DNA of 37,452 nt from Bacteroidales bacterium (GTDB lineage Bacteria; Bacteroidota; Bacteroidia; Bacteroidales; GCA-2748055): positions 1 through 37,452 of the forward strand of contig JAUUZQ010000030.1 of the NCBI GenBank assembly GCA_030589895.1, given 5' to 3'. The notes under the pieces were generated by a model. That model was not told where the DNA came from and did not search any database. It saw only the letters and a list, made by a program, of their open reading frames with translations. The position numbers and the translations under genes were made by a program. Below are positions 13,125 through 37,452 of this stretch, piece by piece. Every line of letters begins with the position of its first letter. Within the stretch, counting starts at the first letter, position 1.

Positions 13125-13245
13125 CTGTGAACTGGAAATGAAGTGTTTTAACAGTGCTGCGTCTAATGCTGACACAGTGTAAGTAAGGAGAACTTCACTA
13201 TTTTTATGGGCTATCTGTTAGATTTATACTATTAATACTCAGGTG

Positions 13246-15108
13246 ATGATCCAAAAAAAACTTTTTATCCCGGCTTTGGCAATTGTGTTCTTGTTCCAAA
13301 GTGCAATATTTGCCCAGACTTATTCCGTACAGCCTGTTCCTTTTAACAAGGTGAAAATTAATGATAATTTCTGGGCGCCAAGACTCGAATCCCATGCGCA
13401 TACAACCCTGCAAACCTGTATTGCACAAACAGAAGATTCAACCGAGCGGATCAATAATTTTGCCAAAGCAGCGGGTAGCATGGAGGGGAAGCACAAGGGT
13501 ATCTACTTTGATGATTCGGATGTCTATAAAGCAATGGAGGGGATTGCCTATTCACTTGTCAATAATCCAAATCCGGAGTATGAACTATTACTCGACAGAT
13601 GGATCGACCTGATTGCAAATTCGCAGCAAGCCGACGGATACCTGAATACATTCTACACCTTAAATGAGCCGGAGAATCGATGGACCGACATGGGGAAGCA
13701 TGAGATGTATTGCGGTGGCCATATGATTGAAGCGGCCATTGCCTACCACAGAGCTACCGGGAAAACTGTGTTTCTGAATGTGGCCATCAATTTTGCTGAC
13801 CACCTGATAGCTACATTCGGTCCCGACAAACGACATTGGGTGCCGGGTCATGAGGAAATTGAACTTGCACTGGTAAAACTCTACCACGAAACAGACGAAA
13901 TAAAATACCTGGATTTTGCACACTGGCTGCTGGAAGAGCGGGGAAAAGGAATTGGCATTGGGGGTGCTTGGAGCTATGAAGAGTATTGGCTTGACTATGT
14001 TCAAAATGATGCCCCCGTTTCTGAAATTACAGATATAAAAGGACATGCCGTGAGGGCCATGTACCTCTTTACCGGGATGGCTGATGTGGCTGCAGAGAAG
14101 GAATTGCCTCAGTATGTGGAGGCTCTTGAAAGGGTATGGGAAGATGTGGTCTACCGCAATATGTATGTTACCGGAGGGATAGGCAGCACGCGAACAAACG
14201 AAGGATTTACAGAAGACTATGATCTGCCCAATAAAACGGCATACTGTGAAACCTGCGCATCCATTGGAATGGTCTTGTGGAACAACCGAATGAACCTCTT
14301 CTCAAAAGATGCAAAATATGTAGACGTGATGGAACGCTCACTCTACAATGGTGTTCTGCCCGGAATCTCCCTCAGGGGCGATCTGTTTTTCTACGTTAAT
14401 CCACTCGAATCCGACGGTGATCACCACCGACAGCAATGGTACGGATGCGCGTGTTGTCCAAGCAACGTGGCCCGGTTTATTCCCTCAATAGGAAACTACA
14501 TCTACCTTGCCGGCGAAGAGGATATATTTGTCAACCTGTTTATTGGAAACAATGCCGAAATAGAACTTGGCAATACTACAGTGAACCTGGTTCAAAAAAC
14601 AAATTACCCATGGGATGGAAAGGTTGAATTAGAAGTGAATCCCCATACTCCATCAGAATTTACCATGAATATAAGAATTCCGGAATGGTGCAATGACTTT
14701 GATATTTCTGTAAAGGGAGATGATCTGGATTACTCTGACCCTGTAGATGGATATGTAAGTATTCGTCGCATCTGGAAAACCGGTGATAAAATTAAACTTA
14801 ACATGTTGATGCCTGTCGTCCTGGTTGCCGCGGATCCAAAGGTTAAGGAGAATATTGGGAAACGTGCCATACAAAGAGGTCCGATTGTTTACTGTCTGGA
14901 ACAGGCAGACCAGAAAGAAATTAACCTTGACAATGTTTCTGTAAGTTCATCCGCTTCTTTCAAAACAAAAAAAGCCAAAGGCGACTTAAGCGGAATGACT
15001 ATTATTGAGAGCAAGGATGCAGGTGAAAAACTCACTTTCATCCCCTATTTTTCATGGGACAATCGCAAAGCAGGAAAAATGAAGGTTTGGATCGATTATG
15101 CAGAGTAA
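13246..15108 (+). CDS. GH127-family beta-L-arabinofuranosidase (DUF1680)
   Basis: This is a secreted glycoside hydrolase that removes beta-L-arabinofuranose from glycans, by family (HypBA1-like). A signal peptide ends near AIFAQ (about residue 24). An (alpha/alpha)6 barrel follows with the family phrases MYCGGHMIEAAIAYHRATGK, GGIGSTRTNEGFTEDYDLP and MERSLYNGVLPG, then beta-sandwich domains. The zinc-cysteine active site of the family is intact: E335 and C337 in YCETCAS, and C403-C404 in GCACCPSN; C403 corresponds to the catalytic cysteine nucleophile of HypBA1. At 620 residues it fits GH127 better than the longer GH146 enzymes. I take ATG at 13246 as start; a GTG lies one codon earlier. No glycan-uptake genes flank it, so its substrate context is unclear. 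Confidence 0.92.
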   Translation: MIQKKLFIPALAIVFLFQSAIFAQTYSVQPVPFNKVKINDNFWAPRLESHAHTTLQTCIAQTEDSTERINNFAKAAGSMEGKHKGIYFDDSDVYKAMEGIAYSLVNNPNPEYELLLDRWIDLIANSQQADGYLNTFYTLNEPENRWTDMGKHEMYCGGHMIEAAIAYHRATGKTVFLNVAINFADHLIATFGPDKRHWVPGHEEIELALVKLYHETDEIKYLDFAHWLLEERGKGIGIGGAWSYEEYWLDYVQNDAPVSEITDIKGHAVRAMYLFTGMADVAAEKELPQYVEALERVWEDVVYRNMYVTGGIGSTRTNEGFTEDYDLPNKTAYCETCASIGMVLWNNRMNLFSKDAKYVDVMERSLYNGVLPGISLRGDLFFYVNPLESDGDHHRQQWYGCACCPSNVARFIPSIGNYIYLAGEEDIFVNLFIGNNAEIELGNTTVNLVQKTNYPWDGKVELEVNPHTPSEFTMNIRIPEWCNDFDISVKGDDLDYSDPVDGYVSIRRIWKTGDKIKLNMLMPVVLVAADPKVKENIGKRAIQRGPIVYCLEQADQKEINLDNVSVSSSASFKTKKAKGDLSGMTIIESKDAGEKLTFIPYFSWDNRKAGKMKVWIDYAE

Positions 15109-21680: not shown

Positions 21681-24600
21681 CTACAGCACTATTATTCTTT
21701 TCTCAAACACATCCTCTCCTACCCTTATCTGTACCAGGTACAATCCTGCAGGATCATCTGTGAGCGATAACTCAATCATCTCAGAAGAGCGATGCTTTGT
21801 CATGGACACAAGCCTGCCAGTCATGGAATAGATGTAAATCTCCAAAGGAAGATCTGAATTAGCAATGGTCTCATTGAATTTTATAAACAGCGGTCCCTCT
21901 GTTGGAACCGGATAGACATTTACTTCGGCCATGAACCTGCTTAGAGCAACTGATGTTGTATCCAGAGGCTCCCAGAAATTAGCCGCCCATGGCGTAATCA
22001 CCGGCATATACTCCCAGTTATCCGAGCCATCGGGATATCTTCCCCAGGCTACATTTCCGTATTGCTCGTTAAAAACAACATGATCTATCATCGTGGTATC
22101 TTCCCCTAAAATCTTAAACAGCGCTACTTCTTCTCCCAGACCGCTAAGTCTGAATCCGGCATGCAATATCCCCTGCTCAATTTGATTGTCGGCATAAACT
22201 ACCAGGTAATCACCCGGCATAATCATTGTTAAGTCAGGATATCCCTTGGGTATTCGCCATGGTTTTGTTGCGGGTATTGAATCGGAAAGATATACTCCTG
22301 CCATGTCAACCGGATCAGATCCGGCATTATACAGCTCAATCCAGTCTTCATATTCACCAAATTCATCAGGATATTTATCCAGATTGAGTGTCATTATCTC
22401 ATTGATAAATACATTCTCAAAATTGCTTGTATCGGCTATAAAAACTACTTCAACTTTTACCATTCCACTAAGCGCTATCTGAACTTGTTGTTCGTAAGAT
22501 ATCTCCGACGTTCCATCACCCTCTCCAACTGTCAGCAGCTCCATATCAAAACTGATGTCTGAACTGCCGGCTGAAGCCTGGTGAATTTCGACAGCCATCA
22601 CATTTTCCCCATTTATAAAGAACTCAGGATTGATATGCAGGGTATGAAAGATTTGTTCATCCGCTCCGCTTACTGCCATCTCAGCTGTGGCATTTAATCC
22701 GGTAGACCAGCGCTGCATATTGTCACGAATTACCTCATTCCCATTAAGATATATCTTGGCGCCATCGTCTCTCAACAGATGAACCGTGAATCGCCTCACC
22801 ATGCCGGCATCTTCAATTGTAAATTTCTTTCTGAAAAGGGTAGTGATAATCTTATTGTTGCTGTCACCCCCATAAGAAATTACCGTAGCTTCATCACCAT
22901 CTCCATAGCCCAGTTCAGCATCACCCGATTCCCACAGGCTATCATCAAAGTCTATTGTTTTCCAATCTCCCACCGGAGGATCAAAAGATGCATAGTATTT
23001 CCAATGATCACCTAAGTTTATCAATGCACTGTCTTTAGCGGCATAATGGCTAATCTTCCAGTGCGAAAGAAGGTAACCATCATTTGCAATAGCTGATATA
23101 TCGAGCACCTCACCAGCACTGAAATCACTCCGAAATATTGAATCGCTAAGCTCAACACTGCCGATCTTCACTATTCCGGCATTGCCGGGAATGGCAGCTG
23201 CTTCAAATCCGTAAAGACCTGACAATCCAAAATAATCCTGCACATGCTTCAGGGCCATCTCATGTCTGCGATCTGTAAAATCCCTCATTACCTGAACATT
23301 ACTTCTCCACTTTTCCAGAGAGCCAAAGATTGGCGACATCCAGGTATTATCAGGCAGGTCTACCTTTTGTCCTCCCCATCGTGCAGCATGACGAGGGATC
23401 TCAGGTGCCAGTACCGCTTCCATCTCATTTATAAATGTGTGGATTCTTTCCCTCGAAAAGTAGCTGTCTGAATAGATAGAGAAGCGCTGAATAAACTCAT
23501 GTTTGAACTCCTCATTCTCCAGCAAGGTCCTGAAAAGGTAGGTTGACCAGGGCGGGTTGGGCCATCCACAACCGCAATCAAGTTCTGTAGCTTCATCCAT
23601 AATATCTGATGAGTATTCTTTGAACATATGGTCGAGGTCGTACAATATCCATCTCCACTTATTGTATGGAGCTTCTCTGCTTCTCCAGAATTTAATATTA
23701 TTCCCGGGCCAGTCCCTTCCACCGAAAAATATCTGTATGATCTGATAATTAATATATTCATCCATATCCATTTGGGCTGATACATAGTTGTAGTGCACAT
23801 TCTGTGTAATGTCATTGCTTCTGATATAATCCATCATGGCATTATAATGATCTGCACTTCCTGAAATAACATTCCATGAATCTTCAGGATTTCTTTTGAC
23901 CATGTCTATGGAATCCGGGCTCAGTCCATAGTTATCATTTGGATAATGCTCATTGATCTTTTCCCGCATATTGTGAATTCCCCAATACGCACCATTTATA
24001 TAGAGGACTACGGGCCTGTATGCCTGCATATCCACATCAATAACATCCTTAACCAGCATGTGCGTGAGCGGTTCCCGGAGTAGCGTAAAAGGCTGGTCAT
24101 CTGCTCCTGCCCTTATAATAAAAGTTTCATATTCAACACTCTCCTTGTCGGGAAATAAGCGATAGCTGAAAGCAGATGTTTCATACTCCTTCCTCGCATA
24201 CAAACCCAATGATTTAATCGGGTAACGGACACGCGAGCAGCCCCCAAATATTTTAGCCCCAACAACTTGATTTAATCCGATCGTACCATCTTTTTCAAAT
24301 AGCTCGATGTTTACCGGACGCTCCCAATCCTGGTTCACATTATGGGGTACACTTGTACAATAGCCTGATACACCGGCAGTTCCTTCGACATAAATACCTG
24401 TTTCGTCACTAAAAAAATGATCAGGATCAGTAACCAGGGAAATAACAGGCAAATTCTGTGGTTCATTAATGAAATAAGAGTGAGTAGCTGTAAGTCCCGG
24501 AATTGTACCTGCCTCGAATGTTTTAGCGCGGACTACAGTTGTTGTCAATAAGGAAATTGGAGCGCTATACTGCAAAGAGCTCTCTTTCGGATCAGTTCCA

Positions 24601-25238
24601 TCGAGTGTATAATAAATAGTTGCTGCAGGATTAGAACTGCTTATTTCAAGTGATTGTGCCCCGGTATAAAATCCGCCCAAAATGGAGTAAACCGGCAAGG
24701 CTGAAATACTATCTGTTGCCTGATCAGAATTCACCCCTCCCGGAGTAGGAGATTCAAAAAATCCCAGCCTTTGTAAATCATCCGATTCTCTGCCGTAGGA
24801 AACATCAGTCATCTGGTAAGGAAACACGATAGTTTGAACAATCTGTGACTGTCCGTTAACAAGCATTATCTGTTCTCCTTCCTTGGACAGACTAAAATTG
24901 GTATGCAGACCATTTCCTGTTCCATCAGCATACACCAGGAGATAGCCCTTTGCCTGTATCGCAGTTCCCATGGGGAAATTCCACATAGACAAATTCAAAG
25001 AATCCTCTGAAAGAAAGTAAGTGCTAAGATCTATGCTTACATCAGAACTATTGTACAACTCGATCCAGTCGGTGTAATTTCCAAAATCAACATCTGCATG
25101 AACAGTGGCATTAGACGCCATGATCTCATTGATATATATTTGTCCGGATACACGGGCTGACAAAGCAAAAGTAAAAAACATCAGCCCCAAAAAGAGGCTG
25201 CATGTTCTGAGCAATATTGATTTCGAGAGAAATGTCAT
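21681..25238 (-). CDS. Large secreted CotH-kinase protein with two lamin-tail domains and T9SS signal
   Basis: This protein of about 1,185 residues has a signal peptide (ending ARVSGQ), a lamin-tail domain (about 35-150: INEIMASNATVHADVDFGNY, DWIELYNSSDV), a chitobiase-type C-terminal module (about 190-250: IYYTLDGTDPKESSLQYSAP), and a CotH protein-kinase-like domain (about 265-560: DWERPVNIELFEKDG, VVLYINGAYWGIHNMREKI, WRWILYDLDHMF). A galactose-binding-like segment (about 740-890) follows, then a second lamin-tail domain (about 950-1065) and a T9SS sorting domain (VYPVPTEGPLFIKF to the end). CotH kinases phosphorylate spore-coat proteins in Bacillus; in secreted Bacteroidota proteins their substrate is unknown. 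The start is ATG at 25238; a GTG at 25244 would overlap the upstream peptidase stop as GTGA. It follows the S9 peptidase gene directly, so they form one transcript. Confidence 0.9.
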   Translation of the reverse strand: MTFLSKSILLRTCSLFLGLMFFTFALSARVSGQIYINEIMASNATVHADVDFGNYTDWIELYNSSDVSIDLSTYFLSEDSLNLSMWNFPMGTAIQAKGYLLVYADGTGNGLHTNFSLSKEGEQIMLVNGQSQIVQTIVFPYQMTDVSYGRESDDLQRLGFFESPTPGGVNSDQATDSISALPVYSILGGFYTGAQSLEISSSNPAATIYYTLDGTDPKESSLQYSAPISLLTTTVVRAKTFEAGTIPGLTATHSYFINEPQNLPVISLVTDPDHFFSDETGIYVEGTAGVSGYCTSVPHNVNQDWERPVNIELFEKDGTIGLNQVVGAKIFGGCSRVRYPIKSLGLYARKEYETSAFSYRLFPDKESVEYETFIIRAGADDQPFTLLREPLTHMLVKDVIDVDMQAYRPVVLYINGAYWGIHNMREKINEHYPNDNYGLSPDSIDMVKRNPEDSWNVISGSADHYNAMMDYIRSNDITQNVHYNYVSAQMDMDEYINYQIIQIFFGGRDWPGNNIKFWRSREAPYNKWRWILYDLDHMFKEYSSDIMDEATELDCGCGWPNPPWSTYLFRTLLENEEFKHEFIQRFSIYSDSYFSRERIHTFINEMEAVLAPEIPRHAARWGGQKVDLPDNTWMSPIFGSLEKWRSNVQVMRDFTDRRHEMALKHVQDYFGLSGLYGFEAAAIPGNAGIVKIGSVELSDSIFRSDFSAGEVLDISAIANDGYLLSHWKISHYAAKDSALINLGDHWKYYASFDPPVGDWKTIDFDDSLWESGDAELGYGDGDEATVISYGGDSNNKIITTLFRKKFTIEDAGMVRRFTVHLLRDDGAKIYLNGNEVIRDNMQRWSTGLNATAEMAVSGADEQIFHTLHINPEFFINGENVMAVEIHQASAGSSDISFDMELLTVGEGDGTSEISYEQQVQIALSGMVKVEVVFIADTSNFENVFINEIMTLNLDKYPDEFGEYEDWIELYNAGSDPVDMAGVYLSDSIPATKPWRIPKGYPDLTMIMPGDYLVVYADNQIEQGILHAGFRLSGLGEEVALFKILGEDTTMIDHVVFNEQYGNVAWGRYPDGSDNWEYMPVITPWAANFWEPLDTTSVALSRFMAEVNVYPVPTEGPLFIKFNETIANSDLPLEIYIYSMTGRLVSMTKHRSSEMIELSLTDDPAGLYLVQIRVGEDVFEKRIIVL

Positions 25239-25240
25239 TT

Positions 25241-27340
25241 TCACTTGAGATACTTATCCAACCAGCCACGGAACTCACGTTGCCAGAGAATCGCATTTTG
25301 TGGTTTAACGACAAAATGTGTCTCTTCGGGGAAAATAAGCAGTTTGCTGGGAACTCCTCTCAGCTGCGCAGCATTGAATGCCTGCATGCTCTGCGTGTAA
25401 GGAATTCTGAAATCATACTCGCCTGAGATGATGAGAATAGGAGTATCCCAATTGTCAACTTTCAGGTGTGGGGAATAGGAGTAATTTACAGGCTTTGGAT
25501 CATCCCATGGAGCACCTCCATTGTCGTGGTGCACAAAAAATATCTCCTCTGTTTCTGCATACATACTCTCCATATTATAAATTCCACAATGTGAAATAAA
25601 GGCCTTGAATCGTCCTTCATGAATACCGGCAAGATAGAATACTGAGTATCCACCATAGCTGGCACCTAAAGCAGCAAGGCGATCTTCATCCACATAAGGC
25701 TCCTTGCTCAGTTCATCAATTGCCGTCAGATAATCTTTCATATTCTGTCCGCCATAGTCTCCTGAAATCTGGTCATTCCACTCCTGACCGAATGTAGGTA
25801 ATCCCCTTCTGTTAGGAGCTACCACGATATAATCGCCCGCCACCATCATCTGAAAATTCCATCTGAATGAGAAAAACTGGCTAACCGCACTTTGGGGTCC
25901 GCCGTTACAATAAAGAATGGTTGCGTATTCTTTCGACTCATCAAATCCGGGAGGATAAATAACCCAAACCAACATCTCTTTTCCATCTGTTGTTTCAATC
26001 CATCTCGACTTCACTTCGCCCATTTCAATGTTATCGTAAATGTGTTTATTGACAAAGCTGATCTGCTTCTCATCTCCACTAACAGGATCCACTGTGAAGA
26101 TCTCTGTAGCCATTCTCATCGACATCTTTGTAGCAGAGATCAGTCCTTCAGTCATCTCGAATGAAGTGTAATCGTGAACGCCATTAGTCAATTGTGTAAC
26201 TTCATAAGTATCCACATCGATACTGAATATCTGATATGTGGCATGGAGACCACTGATAAACCGAATAGTTTTACTGTCATCAGACCATAGCAATCCTGAT
26301 ACATTCTGATCCAAATCTTTCGTGAGATATGAAATATCCCCTGATTCAAGATCCATCACCAACAAGCGATCTTTATCAGCCTCATATCCTGGAGCTTCCA
26401 TACTCTGCCATGCCATCTTTTTACCATCAGGAGAGAAAGAAGGATATTTATCATATCCGGGCATTCCTTCAGTTAAATTGACTGTTAACTTGCTCTCAAG
26501 ATCATACAGATAGATATCGGAATTGGTACTGACTGCATACTCAGTCCCTCCCATTTTCTTACATGTATAGGCTATCTTGCTGCCATCGGCATTCCATGAA
26601 ATCTCTGCCTGATCGAAATAAGCTGAGAGTGGAGCATCAAAAGGTTCACCTTCCATGATGTCGGTATCATTTGTCAAACCAGCACCTGAAAGATCTGCTA
26701 CAATAATATGCGATCTGGATTCATCTTCCCAATGGTTCCAGTGCCTGTACATAAGTTCTTCTGCGATCATAACTTTTGCCAGCGGAAGATCCGCATAGGT
26801 TTCTCCAACAGTCTCTTTAAATTTAACATCTTTCAGATAGAAAATTTTTGATCCATCCGGTGAATACTCAAATCCGTTGATTCCCTCTTCAACAGATGAT
26901 ATCATCATTTTTGCAGATCCATCTTCATTCATTTCCCAAAGCTGTACTGAGCCGGAAACATCTGCCAGGTATCCAATAGTTTGTCCTTCACCCTTCCATC
27001 TCGCATTAAAATACGATCCATCCGAATCCGAAAGTTTCACCGGATCACCTCCTGCTGATGACAAAATATAAATATCTGTAATACTGCCATTGATCTCATA
27101 ATCATATCTGGAAACTGTATAGAGCACTGTTTTGCTGTCAGGAGAAAGTTTCTGCTCCCCTACTCTGCCAAATTTCCACATGATCTCAGGAGTGAGAATT
27201 CCATTTTCAATCTCCTCTGCAGTGAGCTGACCTGAGAAATCTCCTTTGATCTCATTTTCAACGGGATTGCAGGCAATCATGCCTGTTATTAGCACAAATA
27301 GCACCGGTATTACACGGGTATTTAATATCCAACTTTTCAT
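25241..27340 (-). CDS. S9-family prolyl-oligopeptidase-like peptidase lipoprotein
   Basis: This 699-residue exported serine peptidase has a lipoprotein signal with lipobox TGMIAC24. Residues about 55-430 contain WD/TolB-like beta-propeller repeats (LSPDSKTVLYTVSR, YSPDGSKIFYL, FSPDGKKMAWQS). The alpha/beta-hydrolase domain holds the triad: S561 in GASYGGYS, D643 in SGEYDFRIP and H675 in EETHFV. It belongs to the DPP4/acylaminoacyl-peptidase branch and presumably trims short peptides in the periplasm or at the surface. The CotH gene follows within 2 bases, so the two are probably cotranscribed. The gene diverges from the SBF transporter. Confidence 0.93.
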   Translation of the reverse strand: MKSWILNTRVIPVLFVLITGMIACNPVENEIKGDFSGQLTAEEIENGILTPEIMWKFGRVGEQKLSPDSKTVLYTVSRYDYEINGSITDIYILSSAGGDPVKLSDSDGSYFNARWKGEGQTIGYLADVSGSVQLWEMNEDGSAKMMISSVEEGINGFEYSPDGSKIFYLKDVKFKETVGETYADLPLAKVMIAEELMYRHWNHWEDESRSHIIVADLSGAGLTNDTDIMEGEPFDAPLSAYFDQAEISWNADGSKIAYTCKKMGGTEYAVSTNSDIYLYDLESKLTVNLTEGMPGYDKYPSFSPDGKKMAWQSMEAPGYEADKDRLLVMDLESGDISYLTKDLDQNVSGLLWSDDSKTIRFISGLHATYQIFSIDVDTYEVTQLTNGVHDYTSFEMTEGLISATKMSMRMATEIFTVDPVSGDEKQISFVNKHIYDNIEMGEVKSRWIETTDGKEMLVWVIYPPGFDESKEYATILYCNGGPQSAVSQFFSFRWNFQMMVAGDYIVVAPNRRGLPTFGQEWNDQISGDYGGQNMKDYLTAIDELSKEPYVDEDRLAALGASYGGYSVFYLAGIHEGRFKAFISHCGIYNMESMYAETEEIFFVHHDNGGAPWDDPKPVNYSYSPHLKVDNWDTPILIISGEYDFRIPYTQSMQAFNAAQLRGVPSKLLIFPEETHFVVKPQNAILWQREFRGWLDKYLK

Positions 27341-31000: not shown

Positions 31001-31651
31001 ATGTCCAATAAACCCTATTATTCAATCATTGCCGGAGAGCTTGCTGACAGTCATAAAATCTCACAGGAAAAGCTCGCCAGGATACCCGATATAATAAGAT
31101 CATCACTCCAGGCAGTAAATAAACAAAAGGAGCCGGCTGACAGAATAGAGTTTGAAATCATACGCATGGATGAATTTCTGGCCAAGATTGAATCTCCCAA
31201 CGGTGCACTTCATTCGCTACTGATGTTTGTCAGTCGCTTTCGCTACGAAACATACAAGGAGCTTAAAATCAGAGCAGAGTTACAGATTTCAATGGGAATT
31301 GGCCCTATTGAGTACTCTCAGAAAGAGCTTCGCGAATCTGATGGCACTGCATTCAGAGAGGCTGCATCAGGACTCAATGGCATGAAAAGGAATCAGAGAC
31401 TCCTTATTAAAACGCAGGATAAATCGCTTAACGATGAGTTCAAGGTGACCTGTGGATTTATGGATATTCTAATTCATAACTGGTCTGACGAACAAGCTGA
31501 AGCACTGTTTTATAGTCTTAGCGGAAAGAACCAGGTTAAGATCAGCGAGGAGCTGAACATTTCACAGCCGGCAGTAAACCGAAGGCTTAAAGCTGCACAT
31601 TGGGATGCAACAGACAGGTTTATAAAAAGATACGAATCTCTAGTAAAATAA
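31001..31651 (+). CDS. SatD-family protein with C-terminal helix-turn-helix
   Basis: This 216-residue cytoplasmic protein has an N-terminal SatD-like part (YYSIIAGELADSHKISQEKL, then LKIRAELQISMGIGPIEYSQ and SDGTAFREAASGLN, which match the family's 'GIGiG.I...DG.A...A' pattern). The C-terminal about 50 residues (EQAEALFYSLSGKNQVKISE, ELNISQPAVNRRLKAA) form a helix-turn-helix, like the sigma-4/LuxR-type domains. SatD was named from a streptococcal acid-tolerance operon, and its function is not known. The GH2-like gene follows 21 bases downstream on the same strand, so it may be the regulator of that gene or simply a cotranscribed neighbour. No SatE-like membrane partner is seen. Confidence 0.8.
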   Translation: MSNKPYYSIIAGELADSHKISQEKLARIPDIIRSSLQAVNKQKEPADRIEFEIIRMDEFLAKIESPNGALHSLLMFVSRFRYETYKELKIRAELQISMGIGPIEYSQKELRESDGTAFREAASGLNGMKRNQRLLIKTQDKSLNDEFKVTCGFMDILIHNWSDEQAEALFYSLSGKNQVKISEELNISQPAVNRRLKAAHWDATDRFIKRYESLVK

Positions 31652-31672: not shown

Positions 31673-33856
31673 ATGAAACTCTACCATTGGACTATATTAG
31701 CCATAATTATCTCTATCGCCGCCTGGGCGATACTAAAGAGCAATGATACAGATCCACGTGCGGAAGTAAATATAGACCTCAACTGGAGATTTTTATTGGG
31801 AGATGTAAAAGAGGCGAGCGAAATTGCCTATGATGATTCTGACTGGAAAATAGTATCGCTGCCCCATGACTGGATGATTGAGCAAGCGGTTTCAAAAGAT
31901 AATCCATCAGGAACAGCAACAGGATACTATCCGGAAGGAGTGGGCTGGTATAGAAAGCATATTGATTTATCTCAATACAATTCAAAAAAACAGTTCTATC
32001 TGATCTTTGACGGTGTATATATGAATTCCGATGTATGGATCAATGGGACCCATGTTGGAAATCATATCTACGGCTATATTGGGTTTCAATATGATATCAC
32101 CGAATATATCCGCTTAGATACCATCAACATCATTGCAGTAAAAACCGACTGCAGTCAACTGCCTGTTGACAGATGGTATTCAGGAGCCGGTATCTACCGC
32201 CATGTAAGATTAATAGCCGCAGAAAAACTACATTTTCCAGAATACAATACCCATATAACAACCAGGGAGGAGAATAACAAAGCGACTGTGACGGCTGAGA
32301 TTTCAGTTTCCAATTTTGACAATAAAGCAAAAAGAGTTAAGATAAAATCAGACCTTCTGGGGCCTGAAGGTAAGCTGATAGCAAGTGTAATCAGCTCAAG
32401 GATTATTGAAGCGGGAGAAGTTGCTGTGATCAGGGAAAAGCATACCATTCAAAACCCAAAACACTGGTCGCCTGACAATCCTGAGCTGTATGAACTTCGC
32501 AGTTTCCTTATCTATAAGAAAGAAGTAACAGACAATCAATTAGTAACATTTGGAGTCCGGACTGCCGAATTTAATCCGGATAGCGGATTCATTCTCAATG
32601 GAAAAAAGCTATGGCTCAAAGGAGTATACATTCATCATGATGGAGGTGAACTTGGCGCTGCCATTCCCGATATTACATGGGAATACAGATTAAAAGCATT
32701 GAAGAAACTAGGCGTAAATGCACTTCGTCTTGCTCATAATCCTCATGCTCCGGAAATACTGGATATATGCGACAGAATGGGATTTCTGGTTATCAATGAA
32801 ATGTACGATAAGTGGGACGACGAATGGTCAGTTGCTGCGAGGGAGATTGACATAGAAACAAGCTGGAAAAAGGACCTTGAATTCTTCATTCAACGCGATA
32901 TCAACCATCCATCAGTTATTCTGTGGAATATAAGAAATGACACCATAGTGCAGTTGAGAGATTCGAAAGAGGATATTAAATGGTATTCGGAGATAAATAT
33001 GTTGAACAGAGAAATAGATACTCTAATAGCCGGGCAATTTATCCAGGCTGGTATCGATTACCTGCGGGAAGCAATCTATTGGCCGAACAGGGGTAAGAGA
33101 AATGGCCTTTTACAAACAAATGGATTTATTAAACCATATGCTTATTATACGCAGAGTATATATTCTGATGAACCAATGGTAAAAATGGTTGTGGTGGATA
33201 AAACAATTATCGACTCCCTTAACGAGAGCCATAGCTGGCAGCTAAGCTGGGCAGGAGCTCCGGTGGTTCGACACTGGACATTTCCGATTGATTCTGAAGA
33301 TAAGATGCTGCTTGTATACACCAATTGCGAGCAGGTTGAGCTAAAACTCAACTCCAGGATCATTCATACGCTGGAGCGATCAGATTTCGAAGACAAGGTC
33401 ATCAAGGCAGAGGTTCCCTACGAGCCCGGAATATTAATTGCCTCAGCTAAAACATTAAACAGCGATGGTAAATTTATTACAATAAGCGACACACTAAAAA
33501 CAGCAGGTGCTCCGGCAATGATTATAATGAAGCCAGATAAATTAATGCTTATTGCTGATGGCCATGATGTCTTACATATTAAAACAAGCGTAACTGACAC
33601 CAAAGGTATTGTTAACCCAACTGCCAATCATTTAATTAGTTATACTTTAGATGGGCCCGGGAAAATAAGTGTAATTGACAATGGAGACCTGGCCGATCAA
33701 ACGCCGGCTTATTCGAAGTTCAAGCGTGTTGTATCGGGAAGACATTTGGTCATAGTAAAATCGTCTATCCTGCCAGGTGATCTTACAATAAGTGCAAGTG
33801 CTGAAGGTCTGATCCCTGCTTCAATCAAAGTAAAATCTATTAAACCCACTGAATAG
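31673..33856 (+). CDS. GH2-family protein missing its catalytic segment (probable pseudoenzyme)
   Basis: This 727-residue protein starts with a single membrane or signal helix (TILAIIISIAAWAI). It has the GH2 sugar-binding domain (about 30-185: DSDWKIVSLPHDWMIE, WYSGAGIYRHVRL), an immunoglobulin-like domain (about 190-300) and the start of the TIM barrel (LWLKGVYIHHDGGELGAAIP, NALRLAHNPHAPEILDICDR, MGFLVINEMYDKWDDEW). The catalytic acid/base site reads WNIRND (D423) where relatives have WSIGNE. Only about 30 residues separate it from AGQFIQAGIDYL (452-463), where relatives have well over 100, so the nucleophile glutamate and barrel strands are gone. The reading frame is intact. It cannot hydrolyse by the GH2 mechanism; a binding role, or ongoing decay, is inferred. 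It lies 21 bases after the SatD-like gene. Confidence 0.85.
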   Translation: MKLYHWTILAIIISIAAWAILKSNDTDPRAEVNIDLNWRFLLGDVKEASEIAYDDSDWKIVSLPHDWMIEQAVSKDNPSGTATGYYPEGVGWYRKHIDLSQYNSKKQFYLIFDGVYMNSDVWINGTHVGNHIYGYIGFQYDITEYIRLDTINIIAVKTDCSQLPVDRWYSGAGIYRHVRLIAAEKLHFPEYNTHITTREENNKATVTAEISVSNFDNKAKRVKIKSDLLGPEGKLIASVISSRIIEAGEVAVIREKHTIQNPKHWSPDNPELYELRSFLIYKKEVTDNQLVTFGVRTAEFNPDSGFILNGKKLWLKGVYIHHDGGELGAAIPDITWEYRLKALKKLGVNALRLAHNPHAPEILDICDRMGFLVINEMYDKWDDEWSVAAREIDIETSWKKDLEFFIQRDINHPSVILWNIRNDTIVQLRDSKEDIKWYSEINMLNREIDTLIAGQFIQAGIDYLREAIYWPNRGKRNGLLQTNGFIKPYAYYTQSIYSDEPMVKMVVVDKTIIDSLNESHSWQLSWAGAPVVRHWTFPIDSEDKMLLVYTNCEQVELKLNSRIIHTLERSDFEDKVIKAEVPYEPGILIASAKTLNSDGKFITISDTLKTAGAPAMIIMKPDKLMLIADGHDVLHIKTSVTDTKGIVNPTANHLISYTLDGPGKISVIDNGDLADQTPAYSKFKRVVSGRHLVIVKSSILPGDLTISASAEGLIPASIKVKSIKPTE

Positions 33857-33866
33857 AAGCAACTGA

Positions 33867-35915
33867 CTAGCGGCTAATGCTAACTGGTAATCCAAATGTA
33901 AAAACAGATCCTTCTCCTGTTTTGCTTTTCAATTTGATCCATCCATTGTTGAGTTCCAGAACCTCCTTACAAATCTTCAAACCTATACCTGATCCTTTTT
34001 CTTTATTGGTACCTTCAGTAGATCTAAGCTCATCAGATTTAAATATGCTATTAATCAGTATACTTGGAATTCCTACACCTGTATCAGAGACCTCAAAGAT
34101 AGTTTCATCTCCTTGCTCAGAAAGAGTTGCCAAAATCTCCACTTTTCCTTTGACACCAGTAAATTTGATCGCATTGCTAAGAAGGTTGCGAAGCACTATT
34201 TTAAATTGTTCTTTGTCTGAATATACTTTCAGTTTCGCATCCACATTAATTTTCAGATCGATTTTCTTTTCCTTTACGGCAAAAGTAAAGAGATCTGCTG
34301 TCTCATTCACAATGGAATGAACCTTGAAGAGTTCACTGTTTGCAGCAAGATTTCCAATTTTTGATCTACCCCAAACCAATAAATTTTCAAGAAGGTTCAT
34401 GGTTGCTTTTGATGAATTCATAAGCAAGGTCAATATTTCCTTCTCCTCTTTCTTGCTCATCTTTTCTGTAAGTAATAGCTCCAGCATCTGACTCGTGTAA
34501 CCCACAGGTCCCCTGATATCGTGTCCTATAACTGTGATAAACATACTCCTGATACTGTTCATCTGCTGAAGACCTTTGTTACTCTCCTCCAACTGATGTT
34601 GATGTCTTTCAAGTTCACTTGACTTCAGTTTCAATTCAGCTGTTCTGTCTTCTACAATACTCTCCAGATTGTCATTTACGACAGATATCTCCTCAGCAAG
34701 CTTTTCTGACTGCCGAACCAAATGATTTGACTTCAGAGAAAAGATTATTGCATATACCAGTAAGTAGGCAAACATTGTCAGATGAGATACTTTAGCACTT
34801 GAAATAATATCAAAATAGTATAAAACATCATTTAAAGCTCCAGCAACAACTATGAGAATTCCAATTGCAAAACCCAGGGCATAGGCTCGTCCCCGAACCC
34901 AGGCTCTGATCAGGACGAGAATTACTGTAACGGAGATGAAAAGAAAGAAAATTGCATAGTAAAGTAAAGCTCCGGTGAAAAAACTTACAGGAGTAATTAT
35001 GACAATAATAATCATAAACAAACATACCCAGACAATTATTCTAATAAATAACTTTGGAAAATCATTGGGAAACACAAACCTGATCATGATTACGAATAAA
35101 GGTACCAACAAGCTAAATGTCAGATAATTTATTCGAGTATATTCAATACCATTCATCCAATCCAAATTCAAAATCCCTCCCTCGCTCAAAAAAATTATTC
35201 GAATTGCCATGATCAGGCAGATCAGCGAGAAGAATAGTTTATCAAAATCAGTATGAATTAAAAACATCCCCAGGAAGAAAAACCCAGCGAATAAAAATGC
35301 ACCAATAAGAAAAAAATCGAAACTTTGCCGATCAGCTCTCTCTCCCATTATTTGCATTGGAAATCCAAGTTCCATACCACCCCGGATCCCTCCTATTCTG
35401 TGATCAAAATTCGAAACATGAATTACCAGATTAACCACAGAATCACTTATTGAACTCGTGTGTAATGAGGGCATTGAACTGAATACCGATTGGTATCGAT
35501 TTGTTCCGGGAAAGCCATTAAATCCAATAATTTTTCCATTGATATAGTATCCGGAACCTGAATAAACACCTGTAAATCTGAATGCGAGGCGCTGTACATT
35601 ATCAGGCATAAGAATCGTAAGCTGATAGGAGGCATAACCTTTTGACTCAATACCGGGAACCAGGGCCTCCAAACTGCCCCAGGAAGATGGCACAGGAATG
35701 ATCGTACCTCCGGCATTGGAATATGTAACCGGATCAATAACTTCATTCCAATAGAATATCCACTCACCCTTCACGTTTAATATCCCGTCTTCAAAAAAAT
35801 TATAATCGCGCAAGTCAAGTACTCCCTGGATTGCTTCCGGAGAATCTTTAGCTGACACTGATTGGAATAACAGTAAAAAACTTCCTGCTAAAAGTAAATT
35901 CCTATTGAAAAACAT
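33867..35915 (-). CDS. Sensor histidine kinase with 7TMR-DISM input domains
   Basis: This 682-residue kinase starts at ATG 35915 with a signal peptide (LLLAGSFLLLFQSVSAK). The periplasmic part (about 20-190) resembles 7TMR-DISMED2-type carbohydrate-binding sandwiches (SSWGSLEALVPGIESKGYA, INGKIIGFNGFPG). Seven transmembrane helices follow (about 200-390), then a coiled coil (EEISVVNDNLESIVEDRTAE), HisKA with the phospho-acceptor H455 (VIGHDIRGPV), and HATPase_c (RNLLSNAIKFTG, SDTGVGIP, GSGIGLKIC). The ATP-lid phrases are intact, so it should be active. No response regulator is adjacent. It converges with the GH2-like gene at a 10-base distance. The ligand is unknown. A TTG at 35957 could extend the start by 14 residues. 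Confidence 0.93.
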   Translation of the reverse strand: MFFNRNLLLAGSFLLLFQSVSAKDSPEAIQGVLDLRDYNFFEDGILNVKGEWIFYWNEVIDPVTYSNAGGTIIPVPSSWGSLEALVPGIESKGYASYQLTILMPDNVQRLAFRFTGVYSGSGYYINGKIIGFNGFPGTNRYQSVFSSMPSLHTSSISDSVVNLVIHVSNFDHRIGGIRGGMELGFPMQIMGERADRQSFDFFLIGAFLFAGFFFLGMFLIHTDFDKLFFSLICLIMAIRIIFLSEGGILNLDWMNGIEYTRINYLTFSLLVPLFVIMIRFVFPNDFPKLFIRIIVWVCLFMIIIVIITPVSFFTGALLYYAIFFLFISVTVILVLIRAWVRGRAYALGFAIGILIVVAGALNDVLYYFDIISSAKVSHLTMFAYLLVYAIIFSLKSNHLVRQSEKLAEEISVVNDNLESIVEDRTAELKLKSSELERHQHQLEESNKGLQQMNSIRSMFITVIGHDIRGPVGYTSQMLELLLTEKMSKKEEKEILTLLMNSSKATMNLLENLLVWGRSKIGNLAANSELFKVHSIVNETADLFTFAVKEKKIDLKINVDAKLKVYSDKEQFKIVLRNLLSNAIKFTGVKGKVEILATLSEQGDETIFEVSDTGVGIPSILINSIFKSDELRSTEGTNKEKGSGIGLKICKEVLELNNGWIKLKSKTGEGSVFTFGLPVSISR

Positions 35916-35967
35916 AGCTGATCTATATTGAGTAAAAATAACAGATATATCTATCAATTCAGACTAT

Positions 35968-36885
35968 TCAACAGTTTTTTTTAATCCCCTTGCCTCTATT
36001 CAGTAAATTAAGCAATATTAGTGCAGCACCGGTAATTAACATCCCACTAACAGAAATCCAATCCGGAGTTTCATCAGGCAAAACAAGCCACGCAAGAAAC
36101 GCTCCAAAAACAGGAATAATAAATTTCCAAAGGTTCAAATCTGATACCACAATATTTGGTCTCTTTAGCAATGTGACCCATATTGTAATCGCAACAGCCG
36201 ACAACATGCTAAGCCATGTCAGTGACAAATAGTATTGAATTGGTTTTGGAGAAAAATCAAAGCCCTCAAGCGGTATTGAAAAAAGGAAGAGAAGCAAGCC
36301 TCCAAATATCATTGATCCTGAGCTCAATACCATTGGAGGTATTTTCTTTTTTTCCAAGGCGATAATCACGTTTGTAAATCCGGAAATTATATTGTTCCCG
36401 ATAAGTATCAGGATACCAATTAATTGAATAGCCCCTTCACTGCCATGACCTCTTCCCAAACTTACAAGAGCAACCCCGGATATACCAAACAGGATAATGG
36501 AGCCCTTCTTCCAGCTAATCTTATCATCGGGCATAAAATAATGTGCTACCAAAGCAATAAACAGAGGTCCTGAACCAATTACGATTGCGGCTACAGATCC
36601 TGGGACCTTACTTATTCCAGTATAAAAAAGGGCATATTGAAGAAAAGTTTGAAGAAGTCCAAGAGATAGAATAAACTTAATATTCTCTCTAAAAAAAATT
36701 AGAAATTTCGGATTATAATATATCGCAACAGGAAGCACCAATAAGCCGGATATAAAAAACCTGATACCCGCAAACTGAAGCGGTGTAGTATAAGGCAATC
36801 CAAGCTTAATCCCCACAAAAGCTGAGGACCACAAGAGGCAGGCTAGGACAGCAGGAAGAGTGATATTGAGTTTATAACCATCCAT
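35968..36885 (-). CDS. EamA/DMT-family transporter
   Basis: This 305-residue inner-membrane protein has about ten transmembrane helices in two EamA repeats. The first has LACLLWSSAFVGIKLGLPYT and GISKVPGSVAAIVIGSGPLF, with the conserved proline and glycine pattern of the family; the second runs from IGILILIGNNIISGFTNVII to LITGAALILLNLL. Relatives export amino acids, nucleobases or other small metabolites, and the substrate here is unknown. The gene lies 34 bases after the beta-galactosidase stop and is followed by the histidine kinase gene after 52 bases, so all three may share a transcript. Confidence 0.93.
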   Translation of the reverse strand: MDGYKLNITLPAVLACLLWSSAFVGIKLGLPYTTPLQFAGIRFFISGLLVLPVAIYYNPKFLIFFRENIKFILSLGLLQTFLQYALFYTGISKVPGSVAAIVIGSGPLFIALVAHYFMPDDKISWKKGSIILFGISGVALVSLGRGHGSEGAIQLIGILILIGNNIISGFTNVIIALEKKKIPPMVLSSGSMIFGGLLLFLFSIPLEGFDFSPKPIQYYLSLTWLSMLSAVAITIWVTLLKRPNIVVSDLNLWKFIIPVFGAFLAWLVLPDETPDWISVSGMLITGAALILLNLLNRGKGIKKNC

Positions 36886-36919: not shown

Positions 36920-37452
36920 TTACTTATATGATTCCCAATACCCATCTCCGGGTTCAAGTGGTGAAATTATAAACTCAAAATGCATTGACTTCGCCGGGAT
37001 GCTATATCTGGCATGTGTCCTGGCACCCCAGGAATTATCCCCGCCAACACCCATCTGCTTATAATTCAATGTAAGGTAAATCTCCTCTCCTTTTATAAGA
37101 TCCGTTGTATGTTTTTGGCTCTTTTTCTTGCGGGATAACATCTCTCTGCTGTAATTAAGTGCCGAGAACTCAAAAGTGGGTAGTCCCTGAATCATAATTC
37201 CGAATCCATCCTCATCCCTCAGAACGAGCCATCTCACATCTGTTTTGTTTCCATTTTCCTGTGGTGCAGGATAGGGAACAAATTGTTCTTCAACAGTACT
37301 TATGTATTGACCAACAAGTGCCGACTTGTTCCTGTCGATATAGTTCTCGTGTGGCCCTCTTCCAAAATACTCTAATTGAGAAAACTCCTGTGGAATTTTC
37401 AGTTCCAAACCAAAGGCCGGAAGCTCGGGATAACTATTGTCCTTTGCAGGCA
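36920..37452 (-). CDS. LacZ-type GH2 beta-galactosidase, C-terminal part only (5' end outside window)
   Basis: The frame is open to the right edge of the window (about 177 codons seen), so the start and catalytic barrel are not in view. The visible part is the beta-galactosidase small-chain/domain 5 fold: LEYFGRGPHENYIDRNKSAL, PYPAPQENGNKTDVRWL, FSALNYSREML and MGVGGDNSWGARTHARYSIP align with the C-terminal LacZ phrases WLGLGPQENYPDR, SENG...R and MGIGGDDSW. It presumably hydrolyses beta-galactosides as an extracellular or periplasmic enzyme. Because the active site lies outside the window, activity cannot be judged. It precedes the EamA gene in transcription order. Confidence 0.9.
   Translation of the reverse strand, partial: PAKDNSYPELPAFGLELKIPQEFSQLEYFGRGPHENYIDRNKSALVGQYISTVEEQFVPYPAPQENGNKTDVRWLVLRDEDGFGIMIQGLPTFEFSALNYSREMLSRKKKSQKHTTDLIKGEEIYLTLNYKQMGVGGDNSWGARTHARYSIPAKSMHFEFIISPLEPGDGYWESYK

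Follow-up and report, generated by a model that had tools for sequence, protein, structure and literature searches.

The question raised by this locus is whether a GH2 gene that has lost its active site in frame was damaged only recently, on its way out of the genome, or whether its product has been kept as a protein without catalysis, perhaps as a partner of the SatD-HTH gene that precedes it. The window analysed here is the whole 37,452 nucleotide stretch of contig JAUUZQ010000030.1 (assembly GCA_030589895.1) from a member of the Bacteroidales.

The shortened GH2 protein and its active site

The gene and the parts of its product that bear on this question are as follows (coordinates, strand, feature and basis).

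31673..33856 (+), GH2 protein, probably without catalysis, 727 aa (open reading frame, Pfam, orthologues in same-family genomes)
31679..31747 (+), N-terminal hydrophobic helix, residues 3-25 (sequence, alignment, predicted helix 3-25)
31775..32215 (+), GH2 sugar-binding jelly-roll, residues 35-181 (Pfam PF02837)
32246..32560 (+), GH2 Ig-like domain, residues 192-296 (Pfam PF00703; model pLDDT mostly 84-95)
32579..33016 (+), retained front of the TIM barrel, strands and helices 1-4, residues 303-448 (PF02836, predicted structure)
32924..32941 (+), altered acid/base motif WNIRND, residues 418-423, WSxGNE in orthologues (alignment)
33017..33031 (+), deletion junction, residues 449-453 (length comparison, intact control model)
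33029..33070 (+), remnant of barrel strand 8, AGQFIQAGIDYLRE, carrying W458Q and G465R (alignment)
33305..33829 (+), C-terminal beta domains DUF4982 and GH2_C5, residues 545-719 (Pfam PF16355, PF18565)

The domain order is therefore N-terminal hydrophobic helix, jelly-roll, Ig-like domain, partial barrel, DUF4982 and GH2_C5, and the 727-codon frame that encodes it is open, with zero stops or frameshifts in the translation, as the original prediction had stated. PF02837, PF00703 and PF02836 each match the protein above cut-off, and the PF02836 barrel match stops at profile position 137 of 302. The protein is a member of the GH2 sequence family, probably membrane-anchored, and the local orthologue of a GalA-like beta-glycosidase. 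Its hydrophobic helix is kept in the aligned orthologues and, with no cleavage site evident, is likely to be an uncleaved membrane anchor. GH2 beta-galactosidases of the GalA/GalB type (NF041462, NF041463) have the same domain order, with three N-terminal domains, DUF4982 and C5, and the solved relatives that match the window protein best in sequence and fold are 7RSK/6B6L (Bacteroides cellulosilyticus) and BuGH2A (5T98/5T99). Intact orthologues align to this type over their full length, whereas in the window protein the nucleophile and barrel strands 5-7 are missing, as are the Glu of the acid/base motif and the Trp of strand 8. Against the GalA profile (NF041462) the window protein scores 508 bits and intact orthologues 523 and 547, all of them below the curated cut-off of 900.

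WNIRND does stand in place of WSIGNE, and the linker that follows is shortened as had been claimed: 29 residues (424-452) separate WNIRND from AGQFIQAGIDYL (residues 453-464), compared with approximately 111 in orthologues. The in-frame deletion amounts to 81-82 codons, and to exactly 82 when measured against 12 of the 14 intact orthologues, and it has removed barrel units 5-7, three of the eight, including the nucleophile Glu. In the predicted structure of the window protein, strands at 316-321, 350-354, 372-378 and 415-420 and a helix at 431-448 are followed by the strand 8 remnant; an intact orthologue, modelled likewise, has strands at 454-459, 480-484 and 501-505 where the window protein has its gap. 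By these models and the length comparison, the deletion ends between helix 4 and strand 8 and the boundaries of the elements are preserved. Model confidence is low at residues 452-488. We rejected this as proof of a misfolded barrel, as the corresponding stretch of the intact control model scores just as low, and a shallow alignment is the likelier cause.

The damage extends further than was first noticed, since S419N, G421R, E426V, P431S, G434D, W458Q and G465R all alter residues that are invariant in the 14 intact orthologues. Hydrolysis by the retaining mechanism of GH2 enzymes needs both a nucleophile and an acid/base Glu. The window protein has neither the Glu of WSxGNE nor the strand-7 nucleophile nor an eight-stranded barrel, and because both catalytic residues are absent it is probably unable to hydrolyse glycosides by this mechanism and, judged by its sequence, catalytically dead. 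It combines homology to a glycoside hydrolase with the loss of catalytic residues, one of the features of a pseudoglycosidase.

Orthologues, rates of change and loss of the gene

An orthologue is present in 18 of the 27 other genomes of the same family, with 48-60% identity over the best segment. A few of the orthologues are truncated at contig ends; NE is conserved wherever the acid/base site is covered, and the (A/S)xETxxY nucleophile wherever the deleted segment is, so that neither the altered motif nor the missing nucleophile of the window protein is a matter of chance. The genes that flank GH2 in the window are listed below.

31001..31651 (+), SatD-HTH gene, 21 bp upstream of GH2 and its conserved partner across the family
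33867..35957 (-), 7TMR-DISM histidine kinase, convergent, conserved neighbour (Pfam, synteny)
35968..36885 (-), EamA transporter, conserved neighbour (Pfam, synteny)
36920-37450 (-), C-terminal part of a LacZ-type beta-galactosidase (Bgal_small_N) that runs off the window end

Across the family the order is SatD-HTH (approximately 10-30 bp upstream), GH2, 7TMR-DISM kinase and EamA, followed downstream by a LacZ-type gene on contigs that extend so far. Since its neighbours are conserved in relatives, the window GH2 is, as judged from gene order, a true orthologue in its ancestral place. Elsewhere in the window are a complete GH127 beta-L-arabinofuranosidase-like gene (13243-15108, +) and a gene (21681-25244, -) whose secreted product of 1187 residues combines a CotH kinase domain with Lamin tail domains and carries a Por secretion tail.

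Only a single genome, a MAG of 89% completeness in 200 contigs, represents the window lineage, and a contig search for a closer relative returned best relatives at approximately 52% identity or less. The original prediction had proposed looking for other shortened GH2 proteins; when the junction was searched for in 393 genomes of the order, no protein aligned across the same deletion. It had also held that close relatives with a full catalytic segment and the same flanks would point to a recent deletion rather than to function. Such relatives literally exist, but they are only 45-60% identical, and the pattern of rates speaks against a recent event.

Among the sites invariant in the 14 intact orthologues, the window protein has changed 8 of 25 in residues 412-470 (the seven substitutions above and E423D) compared with 9 of 183 elsewhere (Fisher p = 1.7e-4), whereas intact orthologues at the same distance differ at 1-2 sites in 412-470 and at 14/197, 19/202 and 15/198 elsewhere. 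This region was picked after inspection of the data, and a free-location scan, used as a correction, gives p = 0.007 for the cluster in the window protein and a cluster in 0 of 3 control orthologues. Branch lengths follow the same division: in 412-470 the window branch measures 1.28 against 0.28 and 0.35 for its sisters, while in the jelly-roll (0.379 against 0.361 and 0.394), and likewise in the Ig-like domain, barrel residues 300-411 and the C-terminal part, it equals theirs. The comparison of synonymous and non-synonymous change suggested earlier is informative as a contrast between regions, which we used instead of absolute dN/dS as synonymous sites are saturated on the window branch, a branch that also spans time before the catalytic loss. 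In the codon model omega is raised on this branch solely in 412-470 (2dlnL 7.97); elsewhere it equals the background (2dlnL 0.45) and is non-neutral (2dlnL 44.1). Simulated neutral drift that changes approximately 30% of the invariant sites would be expected to leave some 12-15 stops in the frame, in which 0 are observed. Together, the cluster of invariant sites, the branch lengths, the codon model and the absence of stops argue for a catalytic pocket that has been drifting for some time in a protein otherwise under constraint, and for a loss that is not recent. A cluster of mutations arising from the deletion event itself, or local structural relaxation, would look similar near the junction.

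Our preferred reading, to which we give a probability of about 0.58, is that the window protein is a non-catalytic, membrane-anchored GH2 pseudoglycosidase that is still constrained. The main rival is that a dispensable enzyme gene is being lost, its catalysis removed in phase and its frame open by chance or because little time has passed, with no remaining function. Two other genomes of the family lend weight to this. In one, from another genus (G011), the syntenic GH2 between SatD and the kinase (L059, 6937-8481, -) is an open 515-aa frame with several internal in-frame deletions, in which invariant sites are hit in the jelly-roll as well. On its sequence this is an independent loss of catalysis, and it illustrates that the GH2 of a SatD pair can simply decay. 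In the other (G024) SatD-HTH is kept and no GH2 stands beside it. SatD there is followed by a 116-residue ORF (L060, 1346-1693, +) with a hydrophobic N-terminal stretch, which we rejected as a GH2 remnant as its similarity was no better than that of shuffles. Rates of SatD and the kinase are ordinary in lineages where GH2 is damaged or missing. Taken with the losses in G011 and G024, this makes catalytic function dispensable and SatD independent of GH2 catalysis. The window genome also encodes many other GH2 proteins, which implies redundancy. Against decay, uniform neutrality is rejected for the window protein, which has normal constraint outside 412-470 and 0 stops, and even the G011 branch is on average non-neutral, being mildly relaxed (omega 0.175 versus 0.10) with omega = 1 rejected (2dlnL 57). 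We regard decay without function as rather unlikely.

The SatD-HTH pairing

The original prediction left a recent in-phase deletion and a retained pseudoenzyme side by side. The second fits the data better, as the changes cluster at the lost site, but the sensory role that was read from the SatD-HTH pairing is unsupported. According to this proposal the shortened GH2 would be a sensor for the SatD-HTH regulator or for the 7TMR-DISM kinase, catalysis having been traded for the reporting of a ligand. The operon is tight (21 bp), and the adjoining kinase has a 7TM sensor region. However, the same arrangement is found with intact enzymes in the family, SatD persists beside the decayed GH2 of G011 and beside none in G024, and neither SatD nor the kinase has undergone special change in the window lineage. 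Since SatD adjoins intact GH2 genes throughout the family, the pairing appears to be ancestral and to accompany intact enzymes, and it provides no evidence for the shortened form as a sensor, a role that we consider very improbable.

Outside the family SatD-HTH has a different partner, the gene that typically follows it elsewhere in the order encoding a DUF3307-like membrane protein (Pfam-confirmed for two); within the order, the pairing with GH2 is seen only in the family of the window protein. Both arrangements consist of a SatD-HTH gene and then a membrane-protein gene. They differ in that the partner in this family is a membrane-anchored GH2, and in a SatD motif that reads R(M/L)DEF in GH2-paired proteins and RGDSF in most of the DUF3307-paired proteins of the order. 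By sequence, the GH2-paired SatD-HTH proteins form a subfamily of their own, in which the partner gene has been swapped. A literature search of limited scope found no description of an association between SatD-HTH and GH2 genes, and nothing of use on SatD, DUF3307 or BuGH2A.

An assembly or binning artefact, with the deletion not present in the organism, is scarcely credible even for a MAG in 200 contigs, as the junction is exactly in phase and several invariant residues have been substituted along with it, the acid/base Glu and the Trp of strand 8 among them, none of which a misjoin explains.

A putative role without catalysis

The history of the window protein begins with a GalA-like, membrane-anchored GH2 beta-glycosidase in an ancestral SatD-HTH/GH2 pair. 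One in-frame deletion of 82 codons took barrel units 5-7 and the nucleophile, and the acid/base and neighbouring pocket residues were substituted. If the protein is indeed a constrained pseudoglycosidase, the N-terminal helix would serve as a tether, with the body of the protein in the periplasm, where the jelly-roll, Ig-like and C-terminal beta domains are expected to fold, possibly with the half barrel packed against them. The shortened, non-catalytic protein would still be made and kept in the periplasm, and its likeliest remaining role may be that of a tethered binder or scaffold for galactoside-type ligands, acting through the jelly-roll and beta domains. A bolder proposal joins three elements: that a single in-phase deletion gave a stable, tethered half-barrel protein, that a similar loss occurred independently in G011, and that a non-catalytic role of the SatD-GH2 pair outlasts its activity. 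We hold this proposal to be doubtful.

The pseudoglycosidases klotho, YKL-39 and CyRPA retain the whole catalytic fold with point changes. In contrast, the window protein is without three of its eight barrel units, and ligand binding by it is putative; it resembles them in having a glycoside hydrolase fold from which catalysis has been lost, in a protein that is apparently retained. These known examples are GH1-like, GH18-like and GH33-like, respectively (review PMC7828330). A literature search of limited scope found no pseudoglycosidase based on GH2, and bacterial pseudoglycosidases are seldom documented. The SatD-HTH/GH2 pair, which extends across the family, merits testing. If our preferred reading is true, a multi-domain glycosidase can shed three-eighths of its barrel and remain kept, and annotation based on GH2 domain hits overestimates catalytic capacity.
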